The notes under the pieces were generated by a model, which saw nothing but the letters and a program-made list of their open reading frames with translations, was not told the DNA's origin and searched no databases. This document shows positions 1 through 13,906 of a DNA stretch of 64,000 nucleotides, in pieces (position 1 is the stretch's first letter; each line of letters opens with the position of its first letter). The translations under genes and the position numbers were made by a program. The stretch comes from Melioribacteraceae bacterium (GTDB lineage Bacteria; Bacteroidota; Ignavibacteria; Ignavibacteriales; Melioribacteraceae), in assembly GCA_022181065.1 (NCBI GenBank), contig BQMY01000089.1, positions 1-64,000 on the forward strand, in the 5' to 3' direction.

Positions 1-57
1 ACTTATACTGGCAAACCCTTAAAAGCTTAATAGTGCGCTGTCTAATGGGACGCTACA
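1..57. other. Left-edge sequence foreign to the interrupted kinase gene
   Basis: The kinase reading frame entering from the right loses all resemblance to the histidine kinase family near position 58 and hits a stop at 42-44. Read on the minus strand, the non-kinase sequence begins TGTAGCGTCCC, and on the plus strand it ends in CTACA. A TG...CA terminus of this sort is common at insertion-sequence ends, so an inserted element is possible. An assembly join at a contig edge is equally possible. Only 57 bases are visible and no transposase can be seen. Confidence 0.3.
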
Positions 58-2003
58 CTAGCAGAAGCTATCCCGGAAAAGCATATATTTGTCTCCTCTC
101 TCTTTACTCCTCTCAACAGGTCTTCCAGAACACCGGTAAAACTTAGCACTGCATTTAACGGACTCCTGATTTCATGCGACATTTGCGCTAAAAATTCAGT
201 TTTTAATCTGTCGGCATCCTCCGCGCGTTCTTTTGCCAGAAGAAGATCATTTTCAACTTTTTTAATATATGTGATATCAAAGAGATATCCTCGCATGTCT
301 GTAAGATTTCCATTCTCATCAAAAATCCCATGTACATTTTCGATTATATTGACAACTTCACCATCTGATCTTATCATGTCAATTTCATAATGGCTCACAT
401 CCCGTTCAGAAATGATCTTCTGTAATAATTTTGCTCTGTCTTCGGGATCTTTATAAAAATTGGTTGCATGATAAAGCTGTAGTTCCTTCAGAGACTTGTA
501 TCCAAGAATTTTCAGAAATGACGGATTACAATCTAAAACCTTCCCCTCAACAGATGAAAGAAAGTCACCGGTCAAATCTTTCATGAAAAATTCACGATAC
601 CGTTCTTCACTTTTTTTCAGAGCTGCTTCAACCTCTTTTCGTGCAGTAATATCATTGATAATTCCGAATATCCGTTCCTTTTCCTTGTCGTACACAGCAT
701 TGGAGTGGACAAATCTAATTTCGCCATCAGGGCGGCGCAACTTGAATTCCAGATCATACGGTTTCCCTTCAACAATCAAATCGTACAGAGCTTTATCAAG
801 TTTAGGTCTGAACTCTTCAAGCGGCATTTTCTGGATCAGGGAAAGGTTAAATTCACTCTCAGTAACACCATAGATGTGTCTTGCTCCCGGAGAACCAATG
901 ATTGTTTTTGTTTTAAGATCAATTTCCCAGTTACCAAATCCACCCAATATCTCAGCCTTCCGTAAACGGCTCTCACTATGTTTAAGTGCGTCCCTAAGTG
1001 TGTAATCACTGGTGACGTCCGAGAAAACCAGCACAACTCCTGATATCACTCCATCTTTATTTAAAATTGGTGAAGCACTATCCGCAATCTGGTATTCTTT
1101 TCCCTCATTTGAACGTAAAATAGTATTGTTTGCCAGATTTACCTTCTTTCCTTCTTTCAATACCTTCGATACAGGGTCTACCAGTTGTTCTCTATTTGCA
1201 GGATTGTAAATTTTAAATATCTCCGTGACAGGTTTACCCTTCGCCTCACTGATATTATAACCGCATAATCTTTCAGCCACCGGATTCATGAGGATAACAT
1301 TACCATTAAGGTCTGTCGAGAGAACCCCATCTCCAATAGAAAGTAAAGTAGTTCTCAACTCTTCATTTTTCTTCTCAATTTTCTTATGTAATAATGATTG
1401 CTGTATAGCAATTGCGACAAGGTTTGCCAGCGCTCTTGAAAGCTCAAGTTGATTTTCGGTGCATGTTTGAATTTCATGCAAAGAAGCAATAATAAACACT
1501 CCAAGCGTTTCTTCAGCTGTAAAAATTGGAATATACCAGATTGAACGTAATGCGCGGTTCTCAATAATTATCTTTTCAACAGGAGTTAACTCCTCAACTT
1601 TACTATCGTGCACGTGCACTATCTCTTTTGATTTGATGGCCTTTAAGATATGAATATGTCCATCAAGTTTTGACCATCTGAAATCCTCAGGGAAATTTGG
1701 ATCAAGAGGCGGAATCATCCCTCCCATATAGAGATAGTCTTCTTCTAAAAGATAAATTGCAGCTGTATCAATATTGGTAAGTTGTGCTATCTTATCTGTG
1801 GCTTCCTGCATCAATGTGCCAAGTTCAGCAGATGAACCAAGATTTATAGCGGCTTCCAGGAGGATACGAAACTCATCACTTTCTATGTTAGCAACTGAAC
1901 TTCCAACCTCATTTTGCAGATTCTCAACAATTTGAAGTTTGTCTCTAAGTAACCTGTTTTCCAGGATTAATTCTTCTTTGGATTTAGAATTATCTGAAAC
2001 CAT
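42..2003 (-). CDS. GAF/PAS sensor histidine kinase, truncated at its 3' end
   Basis: Cytoplasmic multi-sensor histidine kinase. A short N-terminal coiled-coil-like stretch is followed by a GAF domain (about residues 47-200) and three PAS domains (about 219-335, 350-465 and 475-590). The HisKA dimerisation/phosphoacceptor segment carries QMSHEIRSP with the phospho-accepting His near residue 610. The protein then ends at residue 653 without any HATPase (N, G1, G2 box) domain, after only about 40 residues of HisKA. As drawn it cannot autophosphorylate. The frame departs from family sequence at about SAS-VASH, exactly where the foreign left-edge sequence begins. No transmembrane segment is evident. 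The ligand is unknown; two-component partner genes are not visible on this side. Confidence 0.85.
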   Translation of the reverse strand: MVSDNSKSKEELILENRLLRDKLQIVENLQNEVGSSVANIESDEFRILLEAAINLGSSAELGTLMQEATDKIAQLTNIDTAAIYLLEEDYLYMGGMIPPLDPNFPEDFRWSKLDGHIHILKAIKSKEIVHVHDSKVEELTPVEKIIIENRALRSIWYIPIFTAEETLGVFIIASLHEIQTCTENQLELSRALANLVAIAIQQSLLHKKIEKKNEELRTTLLSIGDGVLSTDLNGNVILMNPVAERLCGYNISEAKGKPVTEIFKIYNPANREQLVDPVSKVLKEGKKVNLANNTILRSNEGKEYQIADSASPILNKDGVISGVVLVFSDVTSDYTLRDALKHSESRLRKAEILGGFGNWEIDLKTKTIIGSPGARHIYGVTESEFNLSLIQKMPLEEFRPKLDKALYDLIVEGKPYDLEFKLRRPDGEIRFVHSNAVYDKEKERIFGIINDITARKEVEAALKKSEERYREFFMKDLTGDFLSSVEGKVLDCNPSFLKILGYKSLKELQLYHATNFYKDPEDRAKLLQKIISERDVSHYEIDMIRSDGEVVNIIENVHGIFDENGNLTDMRGYLFDITYIKKVENDLLLAKERAEDADRLKTEFLAQMSHEIRSPLNAVLSFTGVLEDLLRGVKREETNICFSGIASASVASH

Positions 2004-5334: not shown

Positions 5335-7266
5335 ATGTTAAATTTTATATTCAAACCTTTTAACGAAATGACTGATGAAGATTATCAACTGGTTGGTTTT
5401 AAATCCGGACTTGAAATCCATCAGCTTCTTCTCACCGAAAAAAAATTGTTCTGCCGATGCCCCGCCGGGAAATACAATTTCGAGTATAATGCCGAAATAT
5501 TAAGGCATATGCGTCCTACTCTCTCCGAGTTGGGTGAATACGATGGTACAGCATTGATGGAATTCAAAACGAAGAAGGATATCGTTTACAGAATCAATCG
5601 GGAATCGGTATGTACTTATGAAATGGATGATACTCCACCGTTTTTGATAAACGAACAGGCACTTGATATTGCGCTAGAAACCGCGATGTTGTTTAACTCC
5701 AATATCGTCGATGAACTTCATATAGCCAGAAAACAATACCTCGATGGGAGTATCCCCACAGGATTTCAGAGAACCGCAATATTTTCATTAAATGGTGAAA
5801 TACCATACAAGGATAGAAAAATATCGATCATCCAGCAATCTATCGAGGAAGACTCATGTCGTGAGGTTAGCGATATCGGGCACACCAGAATTTACATCAC
5901 AGACCGACTCGGGATGCCATTGATTGAAACCGTAACCGGTCCTGACATGAAAACACCTCGGGAAGTAGCAGAAGTTGCCCGTATTTGCGCCCGGGTTGTC
6001 AGAAGCACCAACAAGGTTCGCAGAGGTATGGGTGCCGCTCGTGAGGATGTAAATGTTTCTGTGGAAGGTGGTACCCGTGTTGAGATTAAAGGTGTACCGA
6101 AAATATCCACAATTCCGCTTCTCACTTATAATGAAGCAAAAAGACAGTGGAATCTGCTAAGATTAAGAGAAGAACTTAAAGACAGAGGTATTACTCCCGA
6201 AACATTCAAGGCAGAATCTGCTGATGTAACCACATTGTTAAAACGCCCTCATTATCTGCCGCTTAAAACGGCGATTTATGATGGTCAGAGAGTTATGTGC
6301 GTTAATCTGCATGGATTCAAAGACCTGCTCCACTGGGAAACTCAAACCGATACTTACTTCTCCAAGGAAATATCAGACCGGGTGAGAGTAATTGCCTGTC
6401 TTACAACGCTTCCTAATATTGTGCATTCCGATAGTAAAAGTGATACTCTTACTTCAGCAGAGTGGGCACTCATAAAAAAACATATGAACGCAAACGAAAG
6501 CGATACACTGGTACTCGTTTGGGGTTCCGAAATGGATACTGATACTGCTGTGAAAGAAATTACTATTCGCGCGAAAGAAGCAACAATCGGCATTCCTTCC
6601 GAAACGCGACAGGCACTCGATGACGGCACAAACGGATTTGAAAGGATTTTACCCGGTGCTGACAGAATGTACCCGGATACAGATCTGCCTCCAAAACAAA
6701 TCACCGCGGAAAGACTGGAAAAAATAAAAAAACAATTACCCGAACCAATCTGGGAAAGAGAAAACTGGTACCGCGAACTAAAAATTCCACCTGATACAAT
6801 CGAAGAATTATCAATACATCCTCTTGCCGCGGTGTTTAAGGAAGCCGTTGAAAAGATGAAGATTGATCCCGTGCTTGCTGCGGTGGTTACTATACAGTGG
6901 ACAAAAAAACTGAAAAAGGCGGGATACGATATCTCTCTCATAACTGACTACATGATGCGGGAAATATTTGAATGTTATTCCAGCGGAATAATATCGCGTG
7001 AAGGTATCTATCTCGCGCTTAAAAAATCTGTTGAACTTGGGAAGTTTTATGCTGAGTTGCTACCCAAACCACTCACACGTTCAGAGTTGAAATCTATAAT
7101 CAAACGTGAAAAAGCATATCTGAATGATATGCCATTGTATGATAAATCAAATTATAACAAGCTTTTAACAGGCAGGGTGATGGATGCAGTAAGAGGCAGA
7201 ATTGAGTTTGAAAAAATTTCCCAGATATTGGATGAACATGATAAGGAGGCAAAAAATGGAAAATAA
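5335..7266 (+). CDS. gatE: Glu-tRNA(Gln) amidotransferase subunit E, archaeal type (GatE)
   Basis: Kinase/transamidase subunit of the GatDE complex, which phosphorylates Glu-tRNA(Gln) and converts it to Gln-tRNA(Gln) with ammonia delivered from GatD. The 643-residue protein starts with the GatB/E cradle motif GLEIHQLL and carries Cys pairs (CRCPAG), the EEDSCRE segment, the VNVSVEGG and VEIKG motifs, an AspRS-like GAD insert in the middle, and a C-terminal YqeY-like tRNA-binding tail. Length and insert set it apart from bacterial GatB (about 480 residues). Met12 at 5368 is an alternative start giving the short N-terminus usual in archaea; no strong ribosome binding site decides between them. 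It overlaps gatD by 11 nt. Confidence 0.92.
   Translation: MLNFIFKPFNEMTDEDYQLVGFKSGLEIHQLLLTEKKLFCRCPAGKYNFEYNAEILRHMRPTLSELGEYDGTALMEFKTKKDIVYRINRESVCTYEMDDTPPFLINEQALDIALETAMLFNSNIVDELHIARKQYLDGSIPTGFQRTAIFSLNGEIPYKDRKISIIQQSIEEDSCREVSDIGHTRIYITDRLGMPLIETVTGPDMKTPREVAEVARICARVVRSTNKVRRGMGAAREDVNVSVEGGTRVEIKGVPKISTIPLLTYNEAKRQWNLLRLREELKDRGITPETFKAESADVTTLLKRPHYLPLKTAIYDGQRVMCVNLHGFKDLLHWETQTDTYFSKEISDRVRVIACLTTLPNIVHSDSKSDTLTSAEWALIKKHMNANESDTLVLVWGSEMDTDTAVKEITIRAKEATIGIPSETRQALDDGTNGFERILPGADRMYPDTDLPPKQITAERLEKIKKQLPEPIWERENWYRELKIPPDTIEELSIHPLAAVFKEAVEKMKIDPVLAAVVTIQWTKKLKKAGYDISLITDYMMREIFECYSSGIISREGIYLALKKSVELGKFYAELLPKPLTRSELKSIIKREKAYLNDMPLYDKSNYNKLLTGRVMDAVRGRIEFEKISQILDEHDKEAKNGK
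7243..7249 (+). promoter_or_regulatory. Strong ribosome binding site of gatD
   Basis: AAGGAGG inside the gatE 3' end, 6 nt ahead of the gatD ATG. It fixes the gatD start and implies translation initiation inside the upstream gene. Confidence 0.8.
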
Positions 7267-8644
7267 TAACGCTTACAAAGGGTACAGAGGCGCCGCTTTA
7301 TCAGTTCTTAAAAATTTTAAAGCACCGGTGTGGAGTGATGTAGATCTGATCACGCCGAAGGGCACTTACAGCGGTATAATACTTCCCCGCTCCGAGAAGG
7401 CTGACGATCTCCACATCGTTCTAAAAATGCCAATTGGTTATAATATTGGAATACTTGCCGAGGCTGTTACAGATATAAAGGTCAAAGGTCAGAAAGAAGC
7501 AATATATAAAATTCCGGAAAAAGCATTCCCGGTTGACCCGAATAAACCGAATATCAAACTACTAGGTACAGGCGGTACGATTGCATCACGACTAGACTAT
7601 CGAACCGGTGCGGTAATTCCCGCATTCTCACCAGGCGAACTTTATGGCTCCGTTCCCGAACTGGCTGATTATTGTAACCTCGATACCGAAAAACTTTATG
7701 GTGTATTCAGTGAAAATATGGGTCCGGAACAATGGATAGGTACGGCAAAAGCGATCGGACGCGAAATTGACAAAGGGGTTCAGGGAATTGTTATTGGTCA
7801 TGGAACTGATGTTATGCACCACACAGCAGCCGTGCTCTCTTTTATGGTTCAGGATTCGCCCATCCCGATTGTGATGGTTGGATCGCAGCGCTCCAGTGAC
7901 CGTCCTTCTTCCGATGCTGCTCTCAATCTTATTCACGCGGTTAAAACTGCCGCTGAAAGTGATATTGCCGAAACTATGGTGTGTATGTTCGGACCCACAT
8001 CAGATGAGTACGGGTTATTACACCGCGGAACACGAGTAAGAAAAATGCACTCAAGTTACAGAAGTACTTTCAGAACTATTGGTGATATCCCCCTCGCGAA
8101 AGTGGACAGAAATGAAATCACCCCTTTCAGCGATAATTATAAAAAACGCAGAAAAGACAGAAACGTTACTATCAACCCTGTATTCGAAGAAAAAGTCAGT
8201 ATGGTTTACTACTACCCCAACATGCAGCCTGATATTATCGACTCACTCATCGATAACGGCTACAAGGGAATAGTAATCGCGGGAACGGGACTCGGACACG
8301 TAAATAAACCTGTTTATCCGGCACTAAAACGCGCTCAGGAAAAGGGTGTCGCTGTTTACATGACAGTACAAACGCTTTGGGGTTATGTACAGATGTACGT
8401 TTATGATACAGGAAGGGACATGATGGAACTTGGTGTAGTTCCCCTTGCAAATATGCTCCCTGAGGTGGCTTATGTTAAACTTGGCTGGGCTTTGGGGCAG
8501 ACTCACGATTTGGATAAGGTAAAAGAAATTATGCTAACACCGATTGCCGGTGAAATAACCGAACGTGAACCTAGCAACGGTTACCTGATCTTCCAGGGTG
8601 GAATTCCCGAAGTTGAGGAGTTTATCAGCAAGTACAGAAAGTAG
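7256..8644 (+). CDS. gatD: Glu-tRNA(Gln) amidotransferase subunit D, archaeal type (GatD)
   Basis: Asparaginase-like glutaminase subunit of GatDE; it releases ammonia from glutamine (or asparagine) for GatE. An N-terminal SH3-like AnsA/GatD-specific segment (about residues 1-85) precedes the asparaginase fold with LLGTGGTIASR (nucleophile Thr), GHGTDVMHHTA (Thr-Asp pair) and the SQRSSDRPSSDA stretch. The start is set by the perfect AAGGAGG at 7243-7249, 6 nt before the ATG at 7256, although the frame stays open upstream to 7202. The protein is 462 residues. The overlap with the gatE stop suggests translational coupling and stoichiometric expression. Confidence 0.93.
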   Translation: MENNNAYKGYRGAALSVLKNFKAPVWSDVDLITPKGTYSGIILPRSEKADDLHIVLKMPIGYNIGILAEAVTDIKVKGQKEAIYKIPEKAFPVDPNKPNIKLLGTGGTIASRLDYRTGAVIPAFSPGELYGSVPELADYCNLDTEKLYGVFSENMGPEQWIGTAKAIGREIDKGVQGIVIGHGTDVMHHTAAVLSFMVQDSPIPIVMVGSQRSSDRPSSDAALNLIHAVKTAAESDIAETMVCMFGPTSDEYGLLHRGTRVRKMHSSYRSTFRTIGDIPLAKVDRNEITPFSDNYKKRRKDRNVTINPVFEEKVSMVYYYPNMQPDIIDSLIDNGYKGIVIAGTGLGHVNKPVYPALKRAQEKGVAVYMTVQTLWGYVQMYVYDTGRDMMELGVVPLANMLPEVAYVKLGWALGQTHDLDKVKEIMLTPIAGEITEREPSNGYLIFQGGIPEVEEFISKYRK

Positions 8645-9056: not shown

Positions 9057-9623
9057 CTAAAAAATCCTCAAGGCCTTCAATTTAGATTCATATTCGCTAT
9101 TTAGCTTTTCCCATTCCATCTTGAACCAGGGGGTGTAATTTTGAGGATTGGATTTCAATTCTTCATTTAACTCACTTTTGGATATCCACTTCCAGTCGGC
9201 TATTTCTGTGGGATTCGGTTTTACTTCACCATTATAATTGCCAACATATACGTAACAATTTTCATTTTCAGAGCCTATCTCACCAAACTTGGCTGTGTAT
9301 ATAAATTTGTATATATATTTTAACTCTGTTGTGATACCCATCTCTTCTTTCAAACGGCGCTGAGTCGCGAATTCTGCGGTTTCACCTTTTCTTGGATGAC
9401 TGCAAACGGTATTAGACCAGAATCCACCCCACAACATTTTATCTTTCGCTCGCTGCTGAAGCAGCAATTCACCCTTGTCGTTAAAAAGGAAGATTGAAAA
9501 TGCTCTGTGCAATACTCCGCTACCAAGATGGCATTCAAGTTTATCTTTGTACCCAACCACATTGTCTTGTTCATCAACAAGTATAAGTTTCTCGTCGTCA
9601 AATGATACGACATCCGAAAACAT
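9057..9623 (-). CDS. idi: Isopentenyl-diphosphate delta-isomerase, type I
   Basis: Nudix-fold metalloenzyme interconverting isopentenyl and dimethylallyl diphosphate, the last step that makes both C5 isoprenoid units usable. The 188-residue protein shows the type I active site: the catalytic Cys in NTVCSHP, the HRAFS segment, a Nudix-like box with RRLKEEMG, and the catalytic Glu in SENENCYVY. The start at 9623 gives a normal N-terminus. It is the last gene of the mevalonate operon, 19 nt behind the HMGR-mevalonate kinase fusion. The organism therefore uses the flavin-independent isomerase, not the FMN-dependent type II enzyme. Confidence 0.94.
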   Translation of the reverse strand: MFSDVVSFDDEKLILVDEQDNVVGYKDKLECHLGSGVLHRAFSIFLFNDKGELLLQQRAKDKMLWGGFWSNTVCSHPRKGETAEFATQRRLKEEMGITTELKYIYKFIYTAKFGEIGSENENCYVYVGNYNGEVKPNPTEIADWKWISKSELNEELKSNPQNYTPWFKMEWEKLNSEYESKLKALRIF

Positions 9624-9642
9624 TTAACACTCCGAAATTTTT

Positions 9643-11892
9643 CTAACCAATATACGCAATAAGTGAGTTATATCCAGCATCTTTGAGAGCCTGAGAGACT
9701 TTTTCAGGATTATCAGGAGCAAGAGCGATCACTGCTCCACCACCACCGCCACCGGTAAGTTTTGCGCCTAATGCACCGTGATTCCTCGCGATTTCAACCA
9801 GCTCTTCCAGTTCCCAACTCGAAACCTGAAGCGCGTTAAGCAATCCGTGATTGACATTCATCAACTCACCAAGCTTAACAAGATCCATAGATTTTACAGC
9901 TTCAACACCTTCAAGAGCTATCGCGTTTATTTCGTCAAAGATACGCTGATACAATCTTTGATTCGCCTGCCACGCTTTTTTAACTTTTCCAACGGTACTT
10001 GCTGTCAAACTCGCGACCCCGCTCAAACCAATCACAACAGGTATTCTCTCTTTAACCTCGATATCCTGCATGAAAGGCGGATCATCTTTTTTGAACAAGA
10101 TAAATTTACCGTAAGTTGCCAGGGTATTATCTATTCCACTTGGTTCGCCATGAACCAACTGCTCACTTCTGAAGGCAAGCGAGTTTACGTGTTCATCACT
10201 TAAATTCAATTTGTAATGTTGCGATAGTGCCCTGATTATTGCTACGGCAAGCGCGGCAGAACCACCCAATCCCATTGCGCGGGGCAGCTTAGGGAAAACT
10301 TCAAGTGTCATGTTACGGTCGCGCAGATCAAGTTCGTCGAGAATCATTTCAAGTGAGCGGTAAACCGAATATTGATGCACATCATCCTTGATCACTTTTT
10401 TCTCAACACCCCATTTCGGAATGAAAAGATTTACACCGTCATCGGCATCTTTAACAGATGCTTCAATTGCGAGCGGAATGGGCGCGGCGACAGCGTGGGA
10501 ACCATAAACAACCGCATGTTCACCAAACAAAATCACTTTTCCATTTCCTGCCGCATGATACGGATCAGCAATTTTTTCCTTGCCGGGAATTGAGGGAACG
10601 CGTTTCCTGTCCGATATTTCGTCAATGATCTCCTTGGCTTTCCATGTCTTTATCTCACCACTTTCTATCAGTTTTTCAACAACTTCCTCAAAAATATCTT
10701 CGCTCGTTCCGGCTGTCATGGCTACACTGCGGGCGTGCAGACTCATATGTCCTCTCTGAATTCCTTCCGTCGCAAGGGCGCGGATTGCGGAAAAATTCTG
10801 CGCGAGGCCGACTGCACCCATAACCTCGGCAAGCTCTCTGGCGTTTTGTACATCCAGTATTTTATATGCCAGTTTTATTACCGGATTAGATTCCAGCGAA
10901 CCACCAACAGTACCAACTTTCATGGGTACTTCAATTTGCCCCACCAGATCACCCGCGTCGTTTTTATACCACTTGGTAAGTGATGTATATCTTCCACCTC
11001 TTGCGGCATATGCATGAGCTGCGGATTCAATTGCCCGCCAGTCATTTCCGGTAGCAATAGCCACAGGATCAATTCCGTTCATTATTCCCTTATTGTGAGT
11101 TGTCGCTCGGTAAGGATCAATCGCGGCGAAATCGGATGCGAGAATAATACCATCACGTACTTCTTCACCTGAGTATCCATTCATTTTCAATAGCTGTACC
11201 GGTAAAGTGACTTTTGAGCGAACAAGTGCGCGATCCGCCAGATTTGATAAAATTCTGAGGAAAACTTCGCCGTCGGTGATTTTTTCCAGAAGAGGCGCTA
11301 CCCCTTCACACATACTGTTCACAAGATTTGCGCCCATTGCGTCTTTCGTATCAACCAGGAGGTGAACAACGAGCATATCCGAGTGTTTACCTCTGCCATA
11401 ATGGATGTAAATCTCAAGATCTTTGGCACCGCCGCCTCTGCCAACCATATTTGGATGCAGACTGTTAGCCAGACCTATAATCTCATCTTTTTTCTGCAAA
11501 ATTAAACTTTTGGCTCTGGAAATATTGGGCACATCCACTATCTGTATTTGTCCGATCAGAATCGAATCATCCGCAACACTCTCAAACCCACCGGCTGATC
11601 GCGCTATTTTTGCGGCGGAACTAACCGCTGCTAAAATTGAAGGTTCTTCCACTACCATAGGAACAAGGTATTCTTTCCTGTTAACAAGAAAATTAAGTCC
11701 GAGCCCCATTGGCAAACCGAAAACACCAATCACATTCTCAATCATTTTATCGGCTTCGTCAGCCTTTAATACTCTTTTACCATTTATCAGTGAGCGCATT
11801 TCTTCTTCATTCAGAACGCCTCTTTCAACCAAAGCTTCAAGTCTGTTTTGTACCGAAAGCTGATAAAACCCCGATATTCTGGAACGTGACAT
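9643..11892 (-). CDS. Fused class II HMG-CoA reductase / mevalonate kinase
   Basis: A 749-residue protein carrying two consecutive mevalonate-pathway enzymes. Residues 1 to about 435 are a class II HMG-CoA reductase: VEEPSILAAVSSAAK with the catalytic Glu, DAMGANLVNSMCEG, the HNKGI Lys, the ATGND Asp and the GHMSLHARSVA His. From about residue 440 a GHMP-family mevalonate kinase begins with GKVILFGEHAVVYG, then PRAMGLGGSAALAVA (ATP loop), GEPSGIDNTLATYG (catalytic Asp) and a glycine-rich KLTGGGGGGAV. There is no stop, frameshift or start site between the halves, so the product should reduce HMG-CoA to mevalonate and phosphorylate it in one polypeptide. It sits 18 nt downstream of the phosphomevalonate kinase gene. 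Confidence 0.93.
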   Translation of the reverse strand: MSRSRISGFYQLSVQNRLEALVERGVLNEEEMRSLINGKRVLKADEADKMIENVIGVFGLPMGLGLNFLVNRKEYLVPMVVEEPSILAAVSSAAKIARSAGGFESVADDSILIGQIQIVDVPNISRAKSLILQKKDEIIGLANSLHPNMVGRGGGAKDLEIYIHYGRGKHSDMLVVHLLVDTKDAMGANLVNSMCEGVAPLLEKITDGEVFLRILSNLADRALVRSKVTLPVQLLKMNGYSGEEVRDGIILASDFAAIDPYRATTHNKGIMNGIDPVAIATGNDWRAIESAAHAYAARGGRYTSLTKWYKNDAGDLVGQIEVPMKVGTVGGSLESNPVIKLAYKILDVQNARELAEVMGAVGLAQNFSAIRALATEGIQRGHMSLHARSVAMTAGTSEDIFEEVVEKLIESGEIKTWKAKEIIDEISDRKRVPSIPGKEKIADPYHAAGNGKVILFGEHAVVYGSHAVAAPIPLAIEASVKDADDGVNLFIPKWGVEKKVIKDDVHQYSVYRSLEMILDELDLRDRNMTLEVFPKLPRAMGLGGSAALAVAIIRALSQHYKLNLSDEHVNSLAFRSEQLVHGEPSGIDNTLATYGKFILFKKDDPPFMQDIEVKERIPVVIGLSGVASLTASTVGKVKKAWQANQRLYQRIFDEINAIALEGVEAVKSMDLVKLGELMNVNHGLLNALQVSSWELEELVEIARNHGALGAKLTGGGGGGAVIALAPDNPEKVSQALKDAGYNSLIAYIG

Positions 11893-11910
11893 TAAAAATC
11901 TCCTAAAATT

Positions 11911-12939
11911 TTATACACCATAACGCAGGTTTACAAGATTAAACCCGCTCTCTTCGAGTAACCCGGTTAACTTATTCCGGTTATAATCTCGTTCAAAAAA
12001 CGCGAGTCCCACATCTCCACCTCCGGCTCCCGAAGGTTTGTACACACCTTCGCAGGAACGAACGATACTGTTTATTTTCCGGTGTTCTCGTGACATAATA
12101 TTTATACCGGCTTTTAGTCCAAGTTTTTCAAGTAAAGAATAATATACGATAATCTGTTCAGAAAAGTTCTGAAACGAATTTTCCTGAAAATTATCGGCAA
12201 GTAATATGGCTGAATTATTAAAATCATCGAGTAAAACCTCAAAATCTTGCCGGTTACTATTCTTGTATTCCATCACAGAAAAAATATATTCCGACGTTGA
12301 GCAGGAAACGCCTGACCAGATCGTAAGGATTTCAAAGTTTTTCGGTATGTGGACAGGTGTGATATAATAGTTTCCGTTTAATTCTTTTCTGAATTTTATT
12401 GATTTTCCGTAAGCCGCAACCGCGATATCGCCTCCGCTTCCGGTTTTGTTCTGCGCAATGGAATGAGCTTCCGAGGCAAATTTCATCAAGGTCTCAGAGG
12501 TAAAATCTTCATCACGGAAATATCGGCTCAACGCCTGTAAAAACCCCACCGTAACCGCGGCGCTGCTCCCGAATCCCAACTTTGATCCTGATTCCGAGTA
12601 AAACTGCGATGTATCAATCTTTACATCTATATTATTCGCTTGTTTTGCATATTGCGGAAACCTGGCGAGAAAAAGGTTGAAAGATACCGAGATAAAAATC
12701 AATTTATCATGGAGTGAAGGTTCATTGATTTTAAACTTTTTATCTTCAATCTCAAAACCGATTTTATCAATGTTAAAAGCAGATGAAGCAAGAGTTGAAC
12801 CCGAATCTGTTGCAGATATTGTTACAACCGCGTATCTGTCAACCGATGTAATCAACGCGGGGGCACCAAATAATACAGCATACTCCCCTGTGAGGAACAT
12901 TTTCCCGGGTACTCTTACCTCAACTTCTTTATTATTCAA
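11911..12939 (-). CDS. mvaK2: Phosphomevalonate kinase (GHMP family)
   Basis: Converts 5-phosphomevalonate to 5-diphosphomevalonate. The 342-residue protein has the GHMP kinase order: an N-terminal VPGKMFLTGEYAVLFG, the ATP-binding KLGFGSSAAVTVGFL, and the C-terminal YKPSGAGGGDVGLAF loop. The KTGSGGDIAVAAYG stretch carrying the catalytic Asp is typical of PMK rather than mevalonate kinase, which is encoded in the neighbouring fusion. Its start overlaps the mvaD stop by 8 nt, which suggests translational coupling. Confidence 0.88.
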   Translation of the reverse strand: MNNKEVEVRVPGKMFLTGEYAVLFGAPALITSVDRYAVVTISATDSGSTLASSAFNIDKIGFEIEDKKFKINEPSLHDKLIFISVSFNLFLARFPQYAKQANNIDVKIDTSQFYSESGSKLGFGSSAAVTVGFLQALSRYFRDEDFTSETLMKFASEAHSIAQNKTGSGGDIAVAAYGKSIKFRKELNGNYYITPVHIPKNFEILTIWSGVSCSTSEYIFSVMEYKNSNRQDFEVLLDDFNNSAILLADNFQENSFQNFSEQIIVYYSLLEKLGLKAGINIMSREHRKINSIVRSCEGVYKPSGAGGGDVGLAFFERDYNRNKLTGLLEESGFNLVNLRYGV

Positions 12940-13906
12940 CTATTTTAACTCCATCTCCAATTCCGGAAACTATAATTGTTTCAATACCGTTCCTGTCGGA
13001 GAAATGATCTTTTATTTTTGTAACATTTTCAGATGGTGTAAAGATTTTCAATTGCGGACCTGCATCAATTGTAAAAAACACGGGTGAGCCGGCAGTTCTC
13101 ATATCCTTTACCTCATTGATCAGATCAAGTGTTGTGCCGTTCCAGTAAATAATTCCGGGACGCGCGGCCATCGCGAGTCCATGCATCTTGAGCGTACTGA
13201 ATTCTGTCACATCCGCAAGTTTTTCAAAATCTTTTTGTTTGATCGCTTTTTTCGCCTCATACAAATCAAATTTTGAACTTGAAATCCAGGAGTTGTAATA
13301 TGGAGATGAATAAGCCGTTGCGTTCATACCATCAGTTGAGCTGATCTTTTTCTGTTTACCGGAAGTTACCAGGATCACTACCGATAAATCCCAATGATTT
13401 GCCGGGGCGATTTGTTCGGCATAATCGGTATGGCTGTCAACACCTTCACCTGTTTTCATTTCAACGAAACCACCGAATATCGAACGAGCTGCCGAACCTG
13501 AACCTTTTCTCGCGAGGATTGATAATTCCCTGTCGGAAATCCGTGTATTTGAAATTTTATTTACACCTGCAGCCAATGCCGCGAACCCTGAAGCAGAAGA
13601 TGCAAGTCCCGCTCCGGAAGGGAAATTATTTATTGTATTTATCGAAAAGAAATCTTTTACACCAAATTCTTTTCTGAAGCTATTGAGGAAATTTGAAATC
13701 CTGCCATACTCTTTTTCGTTTGCGGGTTTTCCATTGTAAATAATCTCATCATTGCCGGAAGTGGCAATGGAGATTTCTGTTTCTGTGTTCAAATTATCGA
13801 GCGTTGCCGAAATTGAACCAACAGCCGGCAGATTAAGTTTTGGTTCTCTTTTACCCCAATATTTAACGAGTGCGATATTGGCGTTTGCTTTTACTTTTAC
13901 GGTCAT
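12932..13906 (-). CDS. mvaD: Diphosphomevalonate decarboxylase
   Basis: ATP-dependent decarboxylation of 5-diphosphomevalonate to isopentenyl diphosphate, completing the classical (not the archaeal modified) mevalonate route. The 324 residues contain NANIALVKYWGKR (substrate binding), FPSGAGLASSASGFAALA (ATP loop), GSAARSIFGGFVEM and the DAGPQLKIF C-terminal motif with its conserved Asp. It lies between the flavin-reductase-like gene (21 nt upstream) and mvaK2 (8-nt overlap). Confidence 0.94.
   Translation of the reverse strand: MTVKVKANANIALVKYWGKREPKLNLPAVGSISATLDNLNTETEISIATSGNDEIIYNGKPANEKEYGRISNFLNSFRKEFGVKDFFSINTINNFPSGAGLASSASGFAALAAGVNKISNTRISDRELSILARKGSGSAARSIFGGFVEMKTGEGVDSHTDYAEQIAPANHWDLSVVILVTSGKQKKISSTDGMNATAYSSPYYNSWISSSKFDLYEAKKAIKQKDFEKLADVTEFSTLKMHGLAMAARPGIIYWNGTTLDLINEVKDMRTAGSPVFFTIDAGPQLKIFTPSENVTKIKDHFSDRNGIETIIVSGIGDGVKIVE

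Follow-up and report, generated by a model that had tools for sequence, protein, structure and literature searches.

In published accounts, at least in the excerpts of them consulted, GatCAB is assigned to bacteria and GatDE to archaea (PMC7373986); GatDE is described as now found only in archaea, with all known archaea lacking glutaminyl-tRNA synthetase (GlnRS) (PMC9499178), and as occurring 'only in archaea missing AsnRS', the asparaginyl-tRNA synthetase (PMC8007984), and a 2014 survey knew of no bacteria with both routes to Gln-tRNAGln (PMC4206432). Here we analyse gatE and gatD, the genes for the two subunits of a GatDE amidotransferase, in a 64,000-nucleotide stretch of DNA (hereafter the window; positions 1 to 64,000 of contig BQMY01000089.1, assembly GCA_022181065.1) from a bacterium of the Melioribacteraceae (Ignavibacteria, Bacteroidota). 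An initial annotation of this DNA had called the GatD/GatE kind archaeal, a view with which the excerpted descriptions agree (PMC9499178, PMC8007984). Our full-text literature search, judged by title and the start of the abstract, found no report of a bacterial GatDE; as the NCBI models score the bacterial form as GatDE, annotators may have labelled bacterial copies without comment.

The window thus holds a known enzyme in a bacterial version and in surroundings where it was not expected. Compared with archaeal GatDE (2D6F from Methanothermobacter, 1ZQ1 from Pyrococcus), it has the same two subunits, domains, catalytic residues and predicted GatE fold, at 32-34% identity, but the bacterial form stands on a separate branch, with 57 columns fixed in bacteria and a much more divergent tail, and coexists with GlnRS, GatCAB and a bacterial U1-A72 tRNAGln. 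We tentatively propose, with slightly less than even confidence, that this GatDE, a member of an old bacterial subfamily, is functional and serves as an accessory beside full ordinary routes; its likeliest use would be the rescue of Glu-tRNAGln mischarged by glutamyl-tRNA synthetase (GluRS).

gatE (5335-7266, forward strand) encodes 643 amino acids (aa), the kinase/transamidase subunit of a Glu-tRNA(Gln) amidotransferase in its bacterial subfamily form, and gatD (7256-8644, forward strand) 462 aa, an asparaginase-type glutaminase subunit with a GatD_N domain. Both exceed the cut-offs of curated NCBI equivalog models (GatE, 534 bits for NF003107, cut-off 456, and 456.5 bits for TIGR00134, cut-off 319.6; GatD, 513 bits for TIGR02153, cut-off 324, with a query frame that began at 7202), which bears out the initial assignment of both subunits to the GatD/GatE kind. 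In Pfam, GatE matches GatB_N (163 bits over aa 24-461) and GatB_Yqey (28.0 bits, cut-off 27), and GatD matches Asparaginase, Asparaginase_C and GatD_N (44 bits, cut-off 25.7). The genes are intact: the start codon of gatD is the ATG at 7256 and the stop codon of gatE occupies 7264-7266, giving the 11-nt overlap already remarked upon, and the perfect ribosome-binding site noticed with it is AAGGAGG, read from the sequence at 7243-7249 (forward strand) within the end of gatE. Of the bacterial neighbours named in the initial annotation, an M20 peptidase, lon, a protein with an S1 domain and a pair of Por_Secre_tail proteins are present. The G+C content of gatE and gatD, 0.38-0.43, falls within that of the first 16 kb (0.36-0.46). 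Contamination is an unlikely source of the genes, since related gatDE sit in single-contig genomes (G043, G058, G071, G093).

Among proteins of solved structure, both subunits have their nearest relatives in the archaeal GatDE 1ZQ1 and 2D6F. An AlphaFold model of GatE (mean predicted local distance difference test score 84.3) aligns with 2D6F chain D over 507 residues (Z 35.3; model residues 12-565) and with 1ZQ1 chain C over 489 (Z 31.8; residues 11-524). The best conserved part is the catalytic cradle (aa 1-270; 5335-6144, forward strand), marked by the GatB_N match and the kept residues; beyond it lie an insertion resembling aspartyl-tRNA synthetase (AspRS) (GAD; aa 288-421; 6196-6597, forward strand), where model residues 288-422 align with AspRS structures at Z 10.6-14.0, and a C-terminal tail (aa 500-643; 6832-7263, forward strand), the predicted YqeY-like tRNA-binding region carrying the GatB_Yqey match, fast-evolving in bacteria. 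Pfam GAD is unmatched in the window GatE and matched in 37 of 58 bacterial GatE. With bacterial GatCAB, GatE shares the GatB catalytic domain and a YqeY-like tail, but it differs in the AspRS-like insertion, in having an asparaginase-type GatD as partner and not GatA, and in falling far below the GatB equivalogs (best 140 bits, cut-off 338). The MurT/GatD of Gram-positive cell walls has the gene name alone in common with it and is an unrelated protein.

The residues that we take to be catalytic (Methanothermobacter numbers) are retained throughout: T101, T177, D178 and K254 in 93 of 93 bacterial GatD, and E13, H15, E157 and E184 in 89 of 89 bacterial GatE, the window's included. Together with the intact genes, all eight support the earlier impression that the genes look functional. 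From knowledge of the family and from these kept residues, we infer that GatD would free ammonia from glutamine, that the ammonia would go from GatD to GatE, and that GatE, with ATP, would activate the side-chain carboxylate of tRNA-bound Glu, which would then become Gln.

Selection on the genes was gauged from ratios of nonsynonymous to synonymous substitution (dN/dS), obtained for listed pairs by simple counting, an approach of limited reliability at large distances. In the 12 closest Ignavibacteria-like pairs listed, gatE gives 0.03-0.12 overall (cradle 0.003-0.075, tail 0.036-0.285) and gatD, in comparable pairs, 0.02-0.06; the distant listed pairs, mostly involving Aminicenantes or Planctomycetota loci, reach 0.51 for gatE, 0.92 for its tail and 0.40 for gatD. 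The close pairs show that both genes are under purifying selection. A decaying relic would suit the patchy distribution described below, but it is hardly credible given the low dN/dS in close pairs, the retention of every catalytic residue checked, and a relative (G003) in which both subunits are kept even though they lie on different contigs.

The genome itself (4.9 Mb, 100% complete, 0.1% contaminated) is fully provided with the ordinary routes. GatA (contig C75), GatB (C106) and GatC (C78), as well as GluRS and GlnRS, adjacent on C144, each score above the NCBIfam equivalog cut-off; GlnRS (G000:C144:13157) reached 794 bits in one search and 906 bits (NF011291, cut-off 681) in another, and AsnRS lies on C132 (489 bits, cut-off 343). 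The cell therefore has direct Gln and Asn synthetases and two distinct amidotransferases, and GlnRS, the absence of which goes with the archaeal pathway, is present. The initial annotation had foreseen dependence on GatDE for Gln-tRNA should GatCAB be missing; with gatA, gatB, gatC and glnS all found, alongside GluRS and AsnRS, such dependence is ruled out and GatDE is formally redundant. With GlnRS, GatCAB and AsnRS all available, GatDE would most likely serve rescue rather than main supply: the cell would use it to correct Glu-tRNAGln that GluRS had mischarged, and would not draw the bulk of its Gln-tRNA from it. We know of no need for tRNA-dependent synthesis of glutamine comparable to that of asparagine. 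In Bdellovibrio, Deinococcus and Thermus an amidotransferase, GatCAB, is likewise kept despite AsnRS and GlnRS, but its retention there is explained, in the excerpted 2014 survey, by tRNA-dependent Asn synthesis (PMC4206432).

The same coexistence runs through the order. GatD_N is found in 36 of 97 genomes, this one included, and the two subunits occur together, a GatE match being present in 34 of the 36 (counts among these 36 were read by eye from result tables); the two exceptions (G021, G029) have gatD at the edge of a contig, in G029 together with a gatE piece. Above the cut-offs, GlnRS is present in all 36, GatB in 33 (missing from G021 and G071, a fragment only in G022) and AsnRS in 34 (not in G024 or G051). 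Since every GatD-positive genome has GlnRS, GatDE is no replacement for it in this order. Presence is patchy within genera (g2, g13, g34, g35, g47, g49, g53), which is compatible with a dispensable accessory, and it is on GlnRS in all 36 relatives, and on a pattern that is patchy yet strictly conserved, that the putative rescue role is based. Among genomes at least 90% complete, GatDE-positive ones are slightly larger (median 3.9 versus 3.6 Mb, n = 31 versus 53, p 0.016), a weak difference that is uncorrected for kinship. One relative carries a second GatB-type match (G027:C20:156127-157515; 367 bits, above the cut-off) within an open frame of 1097 codons that may be a fusion.

Sampled across the phylum, GatE exceeds the cut-off in 29 of 395 genomes, all of them in the same class (by the kinship column, 12 in the family, this genome included, 5 in the order and 12 in the class). 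A scan of named genome contigs with the GatE alignment gave at least 589 stretches, at least 565 of them encoding relatives, from which the best 80 were kept; its patterns came from bacterial sequences and only best matches were retained, so that it says little about archaea. All of the best 80 loci are titled as bacterial metagenome-assembled genomes, about eight of them only as 'bacterium', and they cover about a dozen phylum-level groups, among them Ignavibacteria, Kapabacteria, Chlorobiota, Aminicenantes, Acidobacteria, Planctomycetota, Latescibacterota, Neomarinimicrobiota, Calditrichota, Cloacimonetes, KSB1, Gemmatimonadetes and Krumholzibacteriota. Fifty genomes drawn from these loci were searched: GlnRS is above cut-off in 38, GlnRS-like fragments occur in two (G129, G141), only GluRS-like matches in six whose completeness is not known (G118, G119, G121, G131, G136, G142), and neither GluRS nor GlnRS is matched in four that look incomplete (G100, G105, G111, G145).

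In trees, too, the window's GatDE groups with bacterial sequences. In a quick tree of 95 GatE rows (15 loci from relatives in the order and 73 rows from named genomes, the latter each with at least 500 aligned residues, besides the window, three archaea and three GatB as outgroup), archaeal GatE form a single group (starred fork value of 100) beyond a branch of 3.37 changes per column, and the window GatE falls in a 24-row set (starred fork value of 96) that we read as Ignavibacteria, some of its rows being titled only Bacteroidetes, Bacteroidota or Chlorobiota. In an equally quick GatD tree of 75 rows, branches of 4.02 and 1.84 separate archaea from bacteria, and the window GatD sits in a 50-row bacterial set (starred fork value of 99) of Ignavibacteria, Kapabacteria and Aminicenantes, adjoining, at a fork that carries no star, rows from the same family. 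Furthermore, at least 95% of bacterial GatE agree in each of the 57 columns, and neither archaeal sequence has the residue in question (a gap in two of the columns). Both proteins thus lie within a broad bacterial clade, a placement that the initial annotation had named as speaking against its reading, and GatDE appears, on these alignments, to be neither private to this genome nor a recent archaeal gain. A recent gain by the genome or its family could appeal to the archaeal structures as closest solved relatives, but in view of the long branches in both trees, the place of the window within its 24-row set and the 57 differing columns we consider it very improbable.

Probably, instead, GatDE either passed from archaea to bacteria long ago and then spread among phyla, or was ancestral in bacteria and lost many times. 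Movement between phyla is suggested by phylum-mixed clades, with Aminicenantes beside Ignavibacteria, and by the confinement of GatE to a single class in its own phylum (the 29 of 395 genomes); on the other side, the forks at the base of the GatE tree have values below 80, and the tree includes three archaeal rows only. Viral contigs gave no further archaeal sequences to root it, and plasmids gave one, broken by a frameshift. Three loci (L060, L064 and L069, in G066, G092 and G075) form a second, more distant bacterial GatE branch, with a GatD branch of its own; its GatE are 41-42% identical to the window GatE and 29-31% to archaeal GatE.

Bacterial GatE stands out by a core better conserved than that of GatB and a tail conserved far less. 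GatB was fetched from 20 GatDE-positive relatives and from this genome, and two genomes were dropped with gatE outside the fetched locus, leaving 19 with both enzymes and 171 pairs, which share genomes and so are not independent. Median identity across these pairs is 80% in the cradle and 29% in the tail for GatE, against 72% and 53% for GatB; the tail/cradle ratio is 0.36 for GatE and 0.74 for GatB. GatE has the smaller ratio in every one of the 171 pairs, as it does in all 136 that remain when G066 and G075 are left out. Between phyla, cradle and tail identities of GatE are 72/29 (window versus L126) and 74/16 (window versus L138), and those of GatB in three distant pairs are 49/42, 51/46 and 45/45; the archaeal GatE pair has 58% and 37%. 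No column beyond residue 450 is invariant in the 58 bacterial GatE. It would seem, then, that bacterial GatDE keeps its chemistry strictly and lets the part predicted to grip the tRNA drift.

For such a tail the better explanation is offered by the main rival to rescue, a repurposed amidotransferase in which the catalytic pair is kept and the substrate is no longer, or no longer only, tRNAGln, with lineage-specific tails suited to other Glu-carrying RNAs or partners. The strict conservation of both the cradle and GatD beside so variable a tail fits this well. Yet the tail is still predicted, with high confidence, as a helical domain; over its last part the model aligns with GatB structures (as far as residues 636-643, Z about 26) and not with archaeal GatE, and the tail matches a YqeY structure weakly (Z 7.6). 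GatB_Yqey is still matched in 42 of the 58 GatE at E 0.01, no second substrate candidate emerged, and no neighbouring gene family occurs in more than 14 gatDE loci. On balance we regard repurposing as unlikely, and give just as little weight to a distinct old subfamily acting on a non-archaeal substrate, which would amount to a second, unrecognised RNA-dependent amidation system in GlnRS-bearing bacteria.

The tRNAGln themselves look bacterial. Identity elements for bacterial GlnRS, as given in an excerpt of one study, are G73, U1-A72, G2-C71 and G3-C70 (PMC9976931). This genome's tRNAGln(TTG) has U1-A72 and G73; its tRNAGln(CTG) (G000:C74:69314-69386) has U1-A72 but A73. Found by similarity, tRNAGln(CTG) could be read in 73 of the 97 genomes (the other 24, four of them GatD-positive, went unread): U1-A72, and not the A1-U72 of the archaeal pathway, is present in all 73, this genome's included, and A73 in 19. 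A dedicated A73 tRNAGln(CUG) for GatDE was considered and rejected, A73 occurring in 11 of 32 GatDE-positive and 8 of 41 GatDE-negative genomes (Fisher p 0.18). As this genome's tRNAGln(CTG) and tRNAGlu(TTC) have the D-stem and variable loop in common, the former is a conceivable target of mischarging.

It may also be asked whether GatDE is a second real supply route, in which GluRS would usefully charge tRNAGln and GatDE would complete Gln-tRNAGln, for example at low glutamine. Every part needed is encoded, the CTG isoacceptor lacks one of the listed identity elements (G73; PMC9976931, excerpt), and six GatDE genomes of other phyla show GluRS-like matches only, with no match to GlnRS. A73, however, does not track GatDE, and GlnRS accompanies GatD in all 36 genomes of the order. 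In addition, this genome's GluRS has Arg at the position of Thermus thermophilus R358, presumably the position of discrimination against tRNAGln. We therefore think a second supply route rather doubtful.

Rescue, the use that we prefer, has its own difficulties. Activity and tRNA substrate of bacterial GatDE are predictions, and the GatCAB of the same cell could perform the same repair. So weakly conserved a GatE tail, the tRNA grip in archaea, would hardly be expected if the enzyme acted on a single, well-conserved tRNA. The Arg in GluRS suggests an enzyme that avoids tRNAGln, that is, a discriminating one; tRNAGln(CTG) of this genome shares 65-72% identity with the two tRNAGlu(TTC), much as it does with tRNAGln(TTG) (66%); and across the 73 genomes read the tRNA test failed, A73 not being linked to GatDE. 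In other phyla, GlnRS was not found above the cut-off in 12 of 50 genomes, and in the six with GluRS-like matches only, GatDE or GatCAB might be the main route.

Whatever its use, the coexistence of GatDE and GlnRS in many bacteria breaks the rule that confines GatDE to archaea and to genomes lacking GlnRS; it also bears on whether GatDE was present in the last common ancestor, and raises the question of which purpose a Gln-tRNA amidotransferase serves in cells that can do without it.

Directly behind the tRNAGln(CTG) gene lie two tandem copies derived from it, 112 bp apart (G000:C74:69091-69154 and 69203-69266, reverse strand, within locus L270, C74:66000-72500), each followed by a terminator-like hairpin seen by eye; we regard them as tRNA-like remnants. 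Partial copies of tRNAGln(CTG) occur in other genomes: G048, G051, G079 and G083 have the 3' part (roughly positions 27-72), and G007, G035 and G060 the 5' part. The 3' copies would fit integration scars at the tRNA gene, and some partial copies may be contig breaks.

The surroundings of gatDE vary. Among 48 of the gatDE loci, scanned along with four GatCAB/GlnRS loci of this genome, none has a tRNAGln gene beside gatDE, and within 6 kb no family recurs in more than 14 loci; a conserved partner as a functional clue across phyla was accordingly dropped. The commonest neighbour is a PIN/PhoH-like gene (by eye), in 14 loci, directly upstream in 13, eight of these in the same family. In three loci another gene separates gatE from gatD: L062 and L063 have a frame of 288 aa, secreted and ankyrin-like, and L058 has one of 277 aa that resembles phage antirepressors (both by eye). 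In the window itself, a mevalonate cluster follows at 9057-13906 (reverse strand), with a NUDIX isomerase-like gene, a GHMP kinase, a diphosphomevalonate decarboxylase and a single 749-aa frame that joins an HMG-CoA reductase to a GHMP (mevalonate) kinase; mevalonate-type neighbours were not found beside gatDE in 35 relatives' loci. Close to the start of the contig, the frame of a PAS/GAF sensor kinase (42-2003, reverse strand) ends within the HisKA domain (positions 2-32 of 66 matched), so that the gene is either broken or wrongly assembled.

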